Source of the DNA: Tetradesmus obliquus
Taxonomy: Eukaryota > Chlorophyta > Chlorophyceae > Sphaeropleales > Scenedesmaceae
Length of the DNA: 64,000 nt
Assembly (NCBI GenBank): GCA_030272155.1
Contig: CP126193.1
Span: 7,812,001-7,876,000, forward strand
Direction of reading: 5' to 3'
Below the pieces are notes generated by a model. It was not told the origin of the DNA. It saw only the letters and a list, made by a program, of their open reading frames with translations, and did not search any database. This document shows, one piece after another, positions 7,978 through 58,407 of this stretch. A program made the translations under genes and the position numbers. Numbering within the stretch: position 1 is the first letter of the stretch; each line of letters begins with the position of its first letter.

Positions 7978-10872
7978 AATGCGCTCCAGCACATAGTCAA
8001 CCATTAGCTCCAGGCTGCGCTTGGCAGGGCAGTCCTTCAACCCTGCCAGCGCCTGCCTTGCAAGCTGCCCCTCCTGCTCCGCCAGCTGCATTGCAGCATC
8101 CAGGCCGCCGGCCTCACTCACTAAGGCCAATGCACGCTGCAGGCTGCCCTCCTCTGTGAATTCAGACTGGATGAGCTGCTCGAGCTCTGGGCTGCGCTGC
8201 AGCGCAAAGATCACGGGCGCGGTGAGGTTGCCAGACGCCAGGTCTTGGCCCTGCGGCTTGCCCAGCTGCTCCGTGGACTGTGTGAAGTCCAGGATGTCAT
8301 CAACCACCTAAATGCGACAGCAGCAGCAGCAGCAGCAGACAAAGGTGCCGTCAGATCCAGAAACCAGTCGCTTGAGAGGAGAGCAGAAAGCTTGTTGAAT
8401 GTGACATATTGCAAAGGGTAATGGAAACAAGGGTGTCGAAATCAATAAGCTGAAGCGCAGCACAGCTGCTTCGTGTCAGCACAAGTGTGCGACACATCAC
8501 TTGAAACACCCCTATCAACCTCCAACACAACATCCAGCCATCCACACCGACCAACAAACCATGCAGCCCACCAAGCATCAGCCCTCACCTGGAAGGCCAC
8601 CCCAGGTGCTTGCCGTAGTCGTACATAGCGCTCAGTCAAACACACCAGCACAGTCAAAACACTAAAAAGCCAATCAGCCAGCCAGCCAGCCAACCGAAGC
8701 TCACCTGGAAGGCCAGCCCCAGGTGCTTGCCGTAGTCATACATGGCCTGCTTCTGGTCCTCATCCATGCCGCTGAACACAGCGCTGCTGCGGCAGCTGGC
8801 GGCAATCAGGGAGGCGGTCTTGTAGAACGACTTGTCGCTGTACTGCTGCAGGCTGACCTCGGTGTCAAACAGCGAGGATGCCTGGCTGATCTCGCCGTTG
8901 GCAAAGTCTGCGATGACCTTGGAGATGAGCTTGATCACCTGCAGGACATAGGAGAAAGTAGGGTTAGAAGCCATGCTAACCTACAGGAAAAGGGTTGGAA
9001 GCAATGCCAACGACAGTAGTGCGGTGTGAGCCAGCCAGGACATGATTCAAACATTTAATGATGGCGCGGCCAGTACACTCCCTCTTGTGCCATTGGCTGT
9101 GGGCACAACTCCAAAAACAACTGCTGCTGCATGCAAGGCAGCCTGCCACCTGCTGCTGTAAACCGAGACGCTCTGGGCCTAATCAGAGGTTGCACAGCTG
9201 TGCACATACCTCCAGGTTCTCCAGGTTAGCAATCAGCCATGAGGCCTGTGCAAACAGGAAGTCGCCAGCCAGCACTGCCACGCGTGTGCCAAACATGGTG
9301 TTGACCGTCTGCTTGCCTGCGATAGCGGCAGCAGCAATAGGGTGAGCACCAGCAACACCCGCAAGCATTGGGCGCCAAGCCAGCTCTGCAAAAGGCAGCT
9401 ATGTGCAGGGCCACTGGTTCCATGTAGCCATTACAAGCTCAATGGATGGCAAGTTTGTGGTTGTGGTGCCAGTGACAGCACCACCGCACAATCCAGCACA
9501 ACACCCGCTTTCAGACCGTGCATACAACTCCCTCAGTGCGCCGTGTACTGCCTCCCTGCTGGCTCTGCACTCGCAATCCATGCATGCTCATGGCCCCGCC
9601 CAGCAGCTCAGCAGCGCCACACTGCTGCTGCTGCTGCTGCTCACCTCGCCGCACGCTGCAGTCGTCCAGCACGTCGTCGTGCACCAGGCTGGCAGTGTGG
9701 ATCATCTCGATGATCTCAGCCAGCCGCCGGTGACGCTCCGTAATGTCACTGCAGGGACGCAGCAACAGCAGCAGCAGGCAGGCACGCGGAGCAGAGGCAG
9801 CAGCAGCAGCAGCGGCAAAGCAGCAGCCATTGTCAGACCTTGCTTTGAAAACGCGGTGTGCGGTTGGGTTCCTTTGAACGCTGCTCCTACAAGCAAGGCC
9901 TGCATGTACAGACTGAAGCTGGCCTGCAAGCCGAAGTGAAGCCTAACTGAATGCTTGCTCCTCTTGTGAGTGCAGTCTGCACATAAACCAGCACAAAGTG
10001 CACGACCATCGCATGCAAAGCCTGGCGCAGACTGTTGTACTCAGAACGAAGCGACGTCGGCAGCCTGGTGTGTACATGCTCAGGCTCTGCTAATATGTCA
10101 GGCTGCTTGTTCCTGTCTGGCTGAGCTGTCAAGCCTGTATGCATGCACTGCCGTGGGCAGGAGTATTGATGTAGTGCAGCTGCTGCTAGGGAAGCCAGTG
10201 CGCACGTGCTGACTCAGCAACCACCATACAACACTGACTAGGGGGCCTGTCCACCAGACCAATCAATTTGCTAATTGCCAATCTGCTGATTGCCAGCAAA
10301 GCACATCTGAAGTGCTTGCAAGCTGCCCACATGTACATGCATGCACTCAGGGCTCCAGCTGAGCTCTGCTGCGCTGCTGCCTCTGCGCCATGCATGTGTG
10401 GCCACGCAACATGCAGAACTAGCCTGACCGGTACCAAAGCCACTCACTCCATGCCTGCCAGGTTTGCAGTGGCCCTGGCAACCAGGAACACAATCATAGG
10501 CCGCAGCTTCTTGCCTCCAGCGCCAAAAATCTGGTCTGCAGCTGCCATGAGCATGGGGTGCCTCTCGCCCACAATGTTCCTGAGGTTGCGGTTCATCTGC
10601 ACCATGTCCGCATTCACAGGCTGCACGATTTGCGATATTAAGTCTGATGGCTGCAGCTTTTGTGGCTGAGGGCTGGTGCTTGGTGCTGCGACGCTCGAGG
10701 CCTCTGGCGCAAGCACTCTGCAGGGTGGTGGCTGAGCAACGCCCTGCCCATGCCTACGACGTTGTGTTTGAGCTGTGGGAGAAATCACTGGCGCACAGGG
10801 CCAGTGGCCAAGGGATCGGCCTGCTGCTAGTGCTTTGTGGTGAGCTGAGTGGTGGGCTTGCATAGTGTGCAT
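7972..10872 (-). CDS. SPS: Solanesyl-diphosphate synthase (long-chain trans-polyprenyl synthase)
   Basis: Condenses isopentenyl diphosphate onto allylic primers to make the C40-C50 side chain of plastoquinone and/or ubiquinone. Five exons (10872-10448, 9748-9645, 9316-9210, 8938-8705, 8307-7972) encode 401 residues in phase. Visible motifs: GAGGKKLRP (substrate-binding Lys/Arg), first Asp-rich motif DDVLD at residues 166-170 within MIHTASLVHDDVLDD, the Ala-Ser pair before it that fits long-chain products, and second motif VDDILD near residue 293. The first 60-70 residues (start MHTMQAHHS) are rich in Ala/Arg/Ser/His and look like an organelle transit peptide, so a plastid or mitochondrial location is likely. 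An in-frame ATG at 11022 is possible but would add an unlikely extension. GTATATG about 80 bp upstream on the coding strand could be a TATA element. The start codon is 350 bp from that of the divergent peptidase gene. Confidence 0.92.
8586..8632 (-). repeat. Echo of SPS exon 4 3' end
   Basis: Inside intron 4, a copy of the last ~45 nt of exon 4 (8705 upward) including the donor: both read ATGTAYGACTACGGCAAGC and end CTTCCAG|GTGAG. The copy has lost one C (CTGGGGTGGCC against CTGGGGCTGGCC), which would shift the frame. It is therefore a decayed partial exon duplicate, not a working exon. Confidence 0.85.
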
Positions 10873-11222
10873 GCTATCTGTATTTTGCTCGACAAAACAA
10901 CCACAAACTTGAAATGCTTGTAAACTACTGAGTCGAAAAGCTGAGCTCAAGCATATACTGGAAATTAGCACTTGCAATGAGAGAGCGGACGTGCCAAGTG
11001 ACCAGGAAGTGCTCGTAATCAACTGTATAAGCTCAATGTGGTCGAGCCCACGTGTTGCTTGGCGGGTGCTGACTGTTCACGGTCAGTGTCATTTGACGTT
11101 TGGGTGCCACCACAGAGTGCGCTCGCACAGGCGGGAGCTGCGCAACGGCTCACCCTGCACCACGAACCTGTCTGGAGTGGACGTATACAGGTTTTGTGCT
11201 GCGAAATAAGCGAGCGAAGGGT
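10873..11222. promoter_or_regulatory. Divergent intergenic region, SPS / M14 peptidase
   Basis: 350 bp separate the two divergent start codons, so the promoters of both genes must lie here or overlap the 5' UTRs. A TATATG-type element (minus strand, about 10949-10961) is suitably placed for SPS. No other motif is recognised. Confidence 0.5.
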
Positions 11223-57737: not shown

Positions 57738-57774
<37 letters not shown>

Positions 57775-58407
57775 ACGATTCTCACCATTGCAGATGCGGA
57801 GCAGGCGCGGCTGGAGCCTGAGCAGCACCTGCGGGCAGGCAGGCACGGCGAGTGGATGCCAGACACGCTGCAGGTGCGGATGCGGGCTGCTTTGCTGTGT
57901 CTGTGTTCGTGCAATTGATTTTGCGGACAACTGCACCTGCGGTTGCAGTGCGCCCACCTGTCCTGTCGCGCTGCTAGCTCAGCGCCCTGCTGCATGGCCG
58001 CCTCGCCTGCATCGGCAGCTTTGTATTGACGCATGCTGCCTTGATGCTTTAACTCTGGGTGCGCGACGCGCTGTGCTGTTTGCACCATACGGCGTCAGCC
58101 CTGCTGGTGCACTCTTCGTTGCTGCAATGAGCCTTACTGCTTTGTCTGCTGTGCTGTGCGCTGCAATTGATACCTGCAGGCTGGCACGCGGCGTGGTGAT
58201 GTGTGGGGCGTGAGTCATGCTGCGTTGCCGCTGGTGCGCTGTATGCTGTGTAGTGACCCAATGTGCCTCACTGCTTCGCCTTGGTTATGTTTGCAGGCGG
58301 GCACGCGGCGTGGTGACGTGTGGGGCGTGAGCCTGGTGCCCAGCGGCTACAGCGAGGAGGCGCACCCGGAGCTGGCTGCAATCATTCGCAGCCAGCACAA
58401 GCGCTGA
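50597..58407 (+). CDS. CMGC (MAPK/CDK-like) protein kinase with large activation-loop insert
   Basis: Ser/Thr kinase. Fifteen exons (50597-50668, 50760-50849, 51374-51515, 51796-51899, 52138-52268, 52473-52877, 53232-53310, 53710-53829, 54085-54278, 54548-54783, 54961-55520, 56670-56783, 57167-57386, 57794-57873, 58297-58407) give 885 residues. G-loop GSGSFSSV (36-43), VALKR with Lys58, catalytic loop HRDIKSAN (Asp165), DLG in place of DFG at 186-188, and APE at 339-341. The CMGC character comes from LRRLEHPHIIGLKDVF, AIDMWGCGCVLGELL, FAVIGTPSW and LLARLLSFDPARRCSCEEAM. DLG and APE are about 150 residues apart, against the usual 25-35, because exon 6 inserts a Gln/Ser/Gly-rich stretch. No TxY is seen (MVCTPCYRAPE). 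Residues after about 500 are low complexity with short conserved ends. Exon 1 was joined at TCG|GTGAGT because it puts YYVDGQQWS in frame with VGTRYTLLKQ. Confidence 0.88.
54346..54395 (+). repeat. Echo of kinase exon 9 3' end
   Basis: TGGTGGCGTTACCTGCGCAA GGTGTTGCCACAACG repeats the exon 9 end GTGGAGGAGATACCTGCGCA AGATGCCGCCACG|GTGAG 90-110 bp downstream. The donor itself is degraded (CGAGTTG). Confidence 0.8.
55592..56444 (+). repeat. Seven-copy satellite of the kinase exon 11 end and donor site
   Basis: Downstream of exon 11 (ends 55520) the intron holds seven copies of ATGGCTGCGCTGATGATGAG CCTGGACAAG|GTGGGG, ending at 55629, 55877, 55985, 56092, 56215, 56339 and 56444. Spacing is 105-124 bp apart from one double interval (248). 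The longest copy (55825-55877) also includes the preceding codons for LAALEHD. The unit continues with GTGCTGGCTGTCGGTGA and a GTTGTTGTGGCGTGT block. Most copies keep GT after AAG; the fifth has TT. Some have an upstream CAG that could act as acceptor. Confidence 0.95.
56640..56669 (+). repeat. (TTATG)4 repeat forming a splice acceptor
   Basis: TGTTATGTTATGTTATGTTA TGTAACAG runs directly into kinase exon 12, so this pentanucleotide repeat serves as the 3' end of the intron. Confidence 0.85.
57052..57105 (+). repeat. Echo of kinase exon 13 5' end
   Basis: GGCTGCGGCCAGCTACAGCG ACTCACCCGGCAGCCGCTCC repeats the exon 13 start (GCTGCAGCCAGCTACAGCGA CTCACCCGGCAGCCACTCG) 114 bp upstream. It is preceded by GCGAAG, an AG, and reads AAASYSDSPGSRSP in frame before diverging. 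Confidence 0.92.
57739..57773. repeat. (CTG)n run in the kinase intron before exon 14
   Basis: About 11 CTG units 20 bp upstream of the exon 14 acceptor (ACCATTGCAG). Confidence 0.95.
58171..58215 (+). repeat. Echo of kinase exon 15 5' end
   Basis: ACCTGCAG|GCTGGCACGCGGCGTGGTGA TGTGTGGGGC|GTGAGTC repeats the last exon's start (TTTGCAG|GCGGGCACGCGGCGTGGTGA CGTGTGGGGCGTGAGCC) 120 bp upstream. Because GTGAGC in the exon became GTGAGT here, the echo is a complete mini-exon with acceptor and consensus donor (30 nt, in frame). Confidence 0.92.

Follow-up and report, generated by a model that had tools for sequence, protein, structure and literature searches.

Partial copies of exon edges, most with their splice site, in the introns of the green alga Tetradesmus obliquus

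Introduction

We examine a stretch of 64,000 nucleotides from the genome of the green alga Tetradesmus obliquus (contig C3, positions 7812001-7876000; 'the window' in what follows), together with sequence from two further contigs, C1 and C8, and confirm that introns hold partial copies of the edge of the neighboring exon, which lie in direct orientation and most of which keep the splice site. We call these copies echoes. They are found on 102 of 760 predicted exon edges, about 1 in 8, and are shared equally between donors (51) and acceptors (51), with a median spacing between original and copy of 122 bp at donors and 121 bp at acceptors. The explanation that we favor, and which we judge about as likely to be right as wrong, is that echoes are the intronic remnants of recurrent tandem duplications of roughly 120 bp (95-160) that lie across splice junctions and leave decaying decoys behind.

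A preliminary description of the window had placed echoes in seven genes and read them as local tandem duplications with a unit that crosses a splice junction. Five of the seven hold up (SPS, TRM1, reductases A and B, and a kinase), and two, the M14 peptidase and a MaoC-like gene, do not. Plain random tandem duplication predicts neither an excess of repeats at junctions nor a narrow spacing of about 120 bp. The duplications may, as that description proposed, keep extending introns.

Materials and methods

The genome comprises 104.7 Mb in 17 contigs. Our sample adds 200 kb of C1 and 50 kb of C8 to the window and so comes to 314 kb, which is 0.3% of the genome and touches 3 of its 17 contigs. 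Exons are predicted by a gene finder trained on the sampled sequences, with a fixed codon model and selective retraining, so that most exons used here are ab initio. The gene finder learned donors of the form CAG/GTGAG and acceptors of the form TGCAG/G (the slash marks the junction), and it recovers the five SPS exons with ends wrong by up to about 70 bases. Exon edges exclude predicted exons shorter than 40 nt or with a low coding score, and the count of 102 in 760 edges omits copies longer than their exon.

Tandem repeats with a period of up to 12 are masked in the BLAST repeat search and those with a period of up to 9 in the ungapped scan and the locus counts; the BLAST low-complexity filter is on in the repeat search of the window (within 2 kb, E<1e-4). 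Loci and edges are counted from ungapped segments that score at least 17, and the other scans use an exon-side score of 22, 18 or 20 (or an intact site). A low-threshold junction scan, which is noisy (507 candidates with an exon score down to 14), is not the basis of the locus or edge counts. The classification of loci by placement is limited to spacings of up to 190 bp and is built on ab initio exons only. For this reason the TRM1 echo at 27007-27052 is tallied there as intron-intron, and at least this one intron locus of the window belongs to an exon that the gene finder overlooked. One locus with an undefined z-score for its intron half is grouped by identity instead.

Results

Echoes form a size class, with a sharp rise near 95-100 bp and a peak at 100-130 bp. 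Counted in 10-bp bins over spacings of 20-419 bp, there are 3-16 repeat segments per bin below 100 bp, then 34, 32, 37, 22 and 16 across 100-149 bp; the count falls to 2 segments at 180-189 bp, and a second mode lies at 200-260 bp. Pairs of identical 14-mers in C1 rise just as steeply, from 32 at 80-89 bp and 61 at 90-99 bp to 461 at 100-109 bp. In the ungapped scan of the full sample, segments with a spacing of 95-190 bp are direct in 166 cases and inverted in 0, and block-shuffled sequence passed through the same scan returns 0 segments at these spacings. The claim that copies always lie in direct orientation is thus borne out at 95-190 bp; it fails below 95 bp, where 8 inverted segments accompany 55 direct ones. 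At E<1e-4 and over distances of up to 2 kb, direct and inverted repeats stand at 30:0 in the window, 172:3 in C1 and 18:4 in C8. Among 101 repeat loci there are 0 cross-locus matches at E<1e-8, and echoes are therefore not a repeat family. We reject an introner or other transposable element as their source: no sequence family runs across the 101 loci, and all three of the spacers searched, with simple repeats skipped, are unique in the genome.

What is constrained in an echo is its spacing. At the 95 junctions whose spacing reaches 95 bp or more, echoes copy 10-97 nt of exon (median 44), and their intron half measures 77 at the median and 50 at the 5th percentile. The two halves are anticorrelated (r=-0.46), and 0 of 5000 permutations give a spacing so narrow (102 junctions). 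None of the three measures (exon half, intron half, spacing) varies with exon length (98 junctions), and in exons longer than 250 nt the copies are still partial (median 51, n=15). Three candidate origins of this anatomy can be set aside. Breakpoints centered on the exon, as at a nucleosome dyad, are rejected since the exon half is unrelated to exon length (rho=-0.03); selection of the spacing for reading frame is rejected since only 31 of the 102 spacings are multiples of 3; and mutually exclusive or duplicated exons are rejected since the copies, counted without any that exceed their exon in length, hold part of an exon and their mismatches fall equally on codon positions 1 and 2.

Echoes at spacings of 95-190 bp concentrate at splice junctions. 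Classed by best segment, the 97 loci comprise 70 that cross a junction, 21 that are intron-intron and 6 that are exon-exon (76, 15 and 6 when any one segment suffices), against 34.5 ± 4.5 junction loci (maximum 49), 48.2 intron-intron and 14.3 exon-exon when the best segments are placed at random in 500 runs. The 37 loci with a spacing below 95 bp comprise 8 junction, 22 intron-intron and 7 exon-exon loci where random placement gives 6.7, 23.9 and 6.4; short repeats are thus randomly placed and serve as an internal control. The share of junction loci differs between long and short spacings (Fisher p=1.4e-6 with loci classed by best segment, 2e-8 with any segment admitted). As first described, echoes of donors are found downstream of their exon and those of acceptors upstream of it, but this is automatic and no evidence, because an intron that adjoins a donor or an acceptor is by definition on that side.

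The units are tandem duplications that span junctions, as the preliminary description had them, and they include multi-copy arrays. One such array, in the C1 block at 19320-19859, has a unit of 118 bp in 4.6 copies with a 98% match, and multi-unit arrays occur in genes named by homology, among them ClpP and the kinase. Two further observations concern arrays away from junctions. Four of the six exon-exon loci at 95-190 bp, the arrays at 67955, 74971, 139232 and 154689 of the C1 block, have units that are multiples of 3, as frame selection would give (108, 117, 108 and 147; the other two are 160 and 139). A large array in the C8 block at 29441-31200, with a unit of about 144 bp (288 according to Tandem Repeats Finder, TRF), has no confident exon edge and is an exception to the placement at junctions.

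Echo-bearing edges number 12 of 166 in the window, where one (21059) is the site of a CAGG array, 82 of 501 in C1 and 8 of 93 in C8. The load, for which a genome-wide extent had been considered, is to this extent seen beyond the window in the contigs sampled; the junction excess does not carry over in the same way and comes chiefly from C1. As an observation in its own right, echo load varies about two-fold across regions and the junction:intron ratio varies much more.

Echoes decay neutrally. Mismatches between exon and echo occur at rates of 0.072, 0.076 and 0.163 at the three codon positions, which is the pattern of an echo free to change at all positions beside an exon that changes mainly at the third. 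Of the junctions with at least two echoes, 26 have a nearest echo that is closer to the exon than the next one, 12 show the reverse, and 5 are tied. When one echo of a junction is set against another, identity is 0.883 over the part that derives from the exon and 0.674 over the spacer (19 of 24 loci, selected on the exon part). Recombination between divergent haplotypes is rejected: divergence at third positions is no more than 0.163, whereas the introns would need saturation.

We now turn to individual genes. In SPS (solanesyl diphosphate synthase, minus strand), whose protein is 99% identical over its full length to the T. obliquus protein P0001, the exon at 8705-8944 (residues 122-202 of P0001 in tblastn, at 8944-8702) has its 3' edge echoed at 8583-8629. 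The echo carries 41 exon bases at 93% followed by GT, and lies 116 bp into the 397-nt intron at 8308-8704. P0001 crosses the junction at 8704 from exon to exon without it.

Reductase A (minus strand) shows the acceptor counterpart. The exon at 32272-32382, matched at 94.6% by residues 82-118 of protein P0244 (tblastn, 32382-32272), has its 5' edge echoed twice, at 32441-32498 (spacing 113) and 32684-32742 (spacing 357), both at 92% and with AG kept; tblastn of P0244 also reports partial extra copies at 32739-32683 and 32495-32448. The last exon of this gene has an acceptor echo at 31646-31684 (spacing 93, 91%, AG lost), and the exon ending at 33627 has a short donor echo at 33507-33534 with 10 exon and about 10 intron bases (spacing 102). 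In reductase B (minus strand) the exon with a few intron bases at 37153-37332 (residues 62-121 of protein P0229, at 37332-37153) is echoed on its donor side at 37043-37109, where 61 bases match at 84%, the donor is lost and, by eye, a TAG stands in the exon frame; tblastn of P0229 shows this partial copy at 37105-37058. At the corresponding donor, reductase A has a mostly intronic repeat with a spacing of 140 (34063-34115 and 34203-34259) and reductase B the echo with a spacing of 121-122, which suggests separate origins because the two repeats differ in extent.

The TRM1 gene (plus strand; TRM by Pfam, PF02005) has an exon start at 27134-27175, which reads K-Y-G-S-Y-P-I-H-R-P and whose boundary was read by eye, being absent from the gene finder. 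Its acceptor echo lies 127 bp upstream at 27007-27052 (89%). A donor echo of the exon ending at 28760 lies at 28867-28900 (28 exon bases, 83%, GT kept), and in the same region a predicted exon ending at 25832 (ab initio only) has a donor echo at 25868-25912 (spacing 74, 88%, GT kept). The region also holds a 145-bp direct duplication, 25290-25434 and 26659-26803, at 98.6% identity; its copies are 1369 bp apart, and it is recent and not tandem.

The kinase gene (plus strand; Pkinase by Pfam) bears the longest series. The 3' edge of an ab initio exon at 55484-55520 is the source of five echoes of the donor at 55520: 55593-55635 (spacing 109, 97%), 55826-55883 (spacing 357, 100% over 52 bases), 55951-55991 (spacing 465, 95%), 56043-56098 (spacing 572, 83%) and 56166-56221 (spacing 695, 84%), of which the first four keep GT and the last has lost it. 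Other predicted exons of this gene, likewise ab initio only, account for a donor echo at 54350-54381 (exon ending at 54278, spacing 104, 81%) and for acceptor echoes at 57048-57118 (exon starting at 57167, spacing 113, 81%) and 58174-58232 (exon starting at 58297, spacing 117, 83%, AG kept).

Two genes drop out of the original seven. The M14 peptidase gene (plus strand) does have direct repeats at 13625-14086, with spacings of 99, 177, 179 and 286, but they share at most about 5 bases with the predicted exon (end at 13629). The MaoC-like gene, whose protein was the tenth searched and gave no Pfam match, has its sole match at junction 21059 (spacing 121), at a CAGG array, and we discount it. 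The gene finder translates this tetranucleotide array (20867-21029, about 41 copies, 89% match) into repeated Cys-Leu-Pro-Ala, with which a minus-strand gene begins.

Outside the window, the ClpP gene of C1 has echoes at five junctions (18578, 19246, 19381, 20158 and 20278), with several progressively decayed copies at 18578 and four near-identical extra units at 19381; its model spliced without echoes is 91% identical to the Haematococcus ClpP P0121 over 100% of its length. Homologous proteins support the exons, and not the echoes, in SPS, reductases A and B and the C1 ClpP gene, whereas the remaining exons of the window are taken from the gene finder; P0001 and P0244 contain one exon copy only, with the echo not represented. 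Pfam names for the genes at issue are protein kinase, bestrophin, alpha-amylase C-terminal, DUF829, DUF726, TRM, M14 and ClpP. We would read the alpha-amylase C-terminal protein as starch-branching-like.

Discussion

How could duplications of about 120 bp come to lie at splice junctions? A duplication that spans a junction would be tolerated if the outermost, true site retains about 50 nt of its own intron; the extra copy would then fall into the intron and drift neutrally. The conserved exon edge may anchor recombination between copies, by which units would be added and the nearest echo refreshed, and anchoring of this kind would also prolong the life of duplicated units. Our best guess is that births are biased to DNA that contains exon, for instance through repair of staggered breaks in exons or at exon borders.

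Several points weigh against this reading. The excess at junctions is uneven between regions and comes mainly from C1, which contributes 59 of the 70 junction loci; by best segment at spacings of at least 95 bp, junction and intron loci stand at 59:11 in C1, 9:6 in the window and 2:4 in C8. Because the gene finder sometimes labels echoes as exons, as in reductase A, the totals of 760 edges and 102 echoes include some that are non-independent or false. The TRF list holds no fresh two-copy founder, its long-unit arrays at a match of at least 94% having at least 2.6 copies, age has blurred the breakpoints, and the step of anchoring and exchange is one that we infer. Lastly, intron halves diverge more than the exon parts would lead one to expect. 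In 11 of 23 echoes whose exon part is at least 95% identical there is no significant similarity of the intron half, and at an exon identity of at least 0.95 the spacer identity is below 0.6 in 14 of 23 loci, where simulated decay of whole units with ordinary indels puts 7-16% below that value. Indel-rich decay raises the simulated share to 32-43%, and the lower-identity bins then match, so that the excess divergence is moderate and depends on the indel rate assumed. It allows two readings: exchange with the constrained exon may refresh the echo, or some events may copy barely more than the exon edge.

The strongest competitor of the favored explanation, clearly less probable but one that we take seriously, is a mutational process specific to junctions, in which the exon edge and its splice site are time and again copied about 120 nt into the intron, at donors and acceptors alike, such that introns would grow as they shed decoys made from their own exons. 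Splicing, transcription or the chromatin of exon borders could perhaps drive it.

Somewhat less probable again, and on balance unlikely, is random tandem duplication combined with survivorship, where units internal to exons are lost to frameshift and those at junctions stay visible longer through their constrained copy. This idea accommodates the neutral decay of echoes, the automatic placement downstream of donors and upstream of acceptors, the random placement of short-unit repeats, and the few loci without strong excess in C8 and the window. It falls short on the ratio of junction to intron loci. When we simulate uniform birth and let the duplicates then decay neutrally, under partial constraint on the exon copy, the ratio is 0.45-0.54 from light to very heavy indels, and the observed value of 3.3 (best segment) or 5.1 (any segment) is 6-11 times larger. 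Decay and detection are therefore insufficient to account for the junction excess; nor does random duplication yield the 95-bp floor.

The behavior of intron halves bears on an account that we consider improbable, namely that copying linked to splicing or transcription moves the exon edge and splice site, with about 5-10 nt of intron, over a distance of about 120 nt within that intron. In 59 of the 95 echoes the intron halves are not significantly similar: the exon part is about 88% identical and matching drops to background about 10 nt past the junction. There are cases of 97-100% exon identity beside unrelated intron flanks, and the footprint measured from the splice site is unaffected by exon length and alike for donors and acceptors. 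However, the intron halves are clearly homologous in 30 of the 95, so duplication of whole units does happen, and we dropped a stricter version in which the intron half never takes part, because its similarity reaches significance at some loci. Neutral decay rich in indels accounts for much of the remainder, a copying mechanism of this sort is not known, and none of three spacers searched in the genome (simple repeats skipped) has a second source there.

That echo splice sites are functional, as regulated alternatives or decoys kept by selection, is very unlikely. Most copies do keep the splice site, as first described: GT or AG is retained in 73 of 95 echoes (24 of 30, 4 of 6 and 45 of 59 in three groups), and mean site scores in these groups are 3.4, 1.5 and 3.1 against 5.9, 5.4 and 5.9 for real sites. 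But the substitution rate of the echoes themselves predicts 81-86% retention, and since the observed figure is not above it, echo splice sites are not visibly selected. Codon positions 1 and 2 mutate equally, the spacing shows no preference for multiples of three, and the donor is lost in the reductase B echo. We give slightly less credence still to the gain of introns by duplication of exonic AGGT segments (the Rogers model), which would make echoes the traces of intron birth. At least one pair aligns donor with acceptor and has an intron exactly as long as its unit (C1 block 14524-14747, 224 in both), and a loose test for donor/acceptor overlap lists 41 of 101 loci, equal length being noted for at least this one. 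In SPS, ClpP and the reductases, though, echoes lie in the middle of longer introns, as with a spacing of 116 in the 397 nt of the SPS intron, and donor-side echoes are followed by a second GT and not by the next exon. An artefact of assembly or consensus is hardly credible, given identities from about 80% to 100% across differing units at unrelated loci and differences that show codon-position structure.

Parts of this picture have counterparts elsewhere. In the potato RdRp gene, as the relevant passages of that study present it, a tandem unit crosses an intron-exon boundary and brings along a putative branch site, polypyrimidine tract and 3' splice site, and an 83-bp duplication inside the first intron is also mentioned (PMC4974935). 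The likeness lies in a unit that spans the boundary; there, a single gene gains a new intron and exon, whereas here about 1 in 8 sampled edges has a decaying copy at a narrow spacing, and the copies are missing from the proteins checked. The Rogers model, as told in the same source, turns exonic AGGT segments into new introns and shares with our case within-gene duplications that copy splice signals, but the copy here amounts to a piece of exon edge within an intron.

Natural insertions in rice were reportedly linked by Vaughn and Bennetzen in 2014 to small tandem duplications of the staggered-break kind. Such duplications arise at staggered breaks with fill-in by CST/Pol alpha-primase (PMC8355091) and resemble echoes as short, local, direct tandem copies made without a mobile element; the portion of that work that deals with them describes neither a junction preference nor a 95-bp floor. 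Tandem repeats are also reported to be significantly enriched near intron-exon junctions, most of all in two green algae (PMC3887541). The abundant intron motif in the sections concerned is the dinucleotide GT/AC, with micro- and minisatellites, and copies of exon edges go unmentioned in them. Introner elements, as outlined in PMC9860276, also affect introns through recurrent sequence insertions; unlike introners, which copy themselves into many genes, the units here are local and show no cross-locus similarity at E<1e-8. Our search of a limited literature collection recognised no earlier description of the pattern.

The introns of T. obliquus have a mean length of 462 bp at 7.8 per gene, and the other four species in the table that gives these values have shorter means (PMC5966456). 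If the favored explanation is true, these long introns are partly made from the alga's own exon edges. Echoes then offer a dense natural sample of duplicated splice sites, on about 1 in 8 predicted edges, among which the cell apparently still picks the right one. Such a sample is useful for the study of splice-site choice and intron growth, and for gene annotation because the gene finder itself called some echoes exons. A duplication process specific in both size and place, if true, would point to a mechanism of repair or chromatin that is as yet undescribed.

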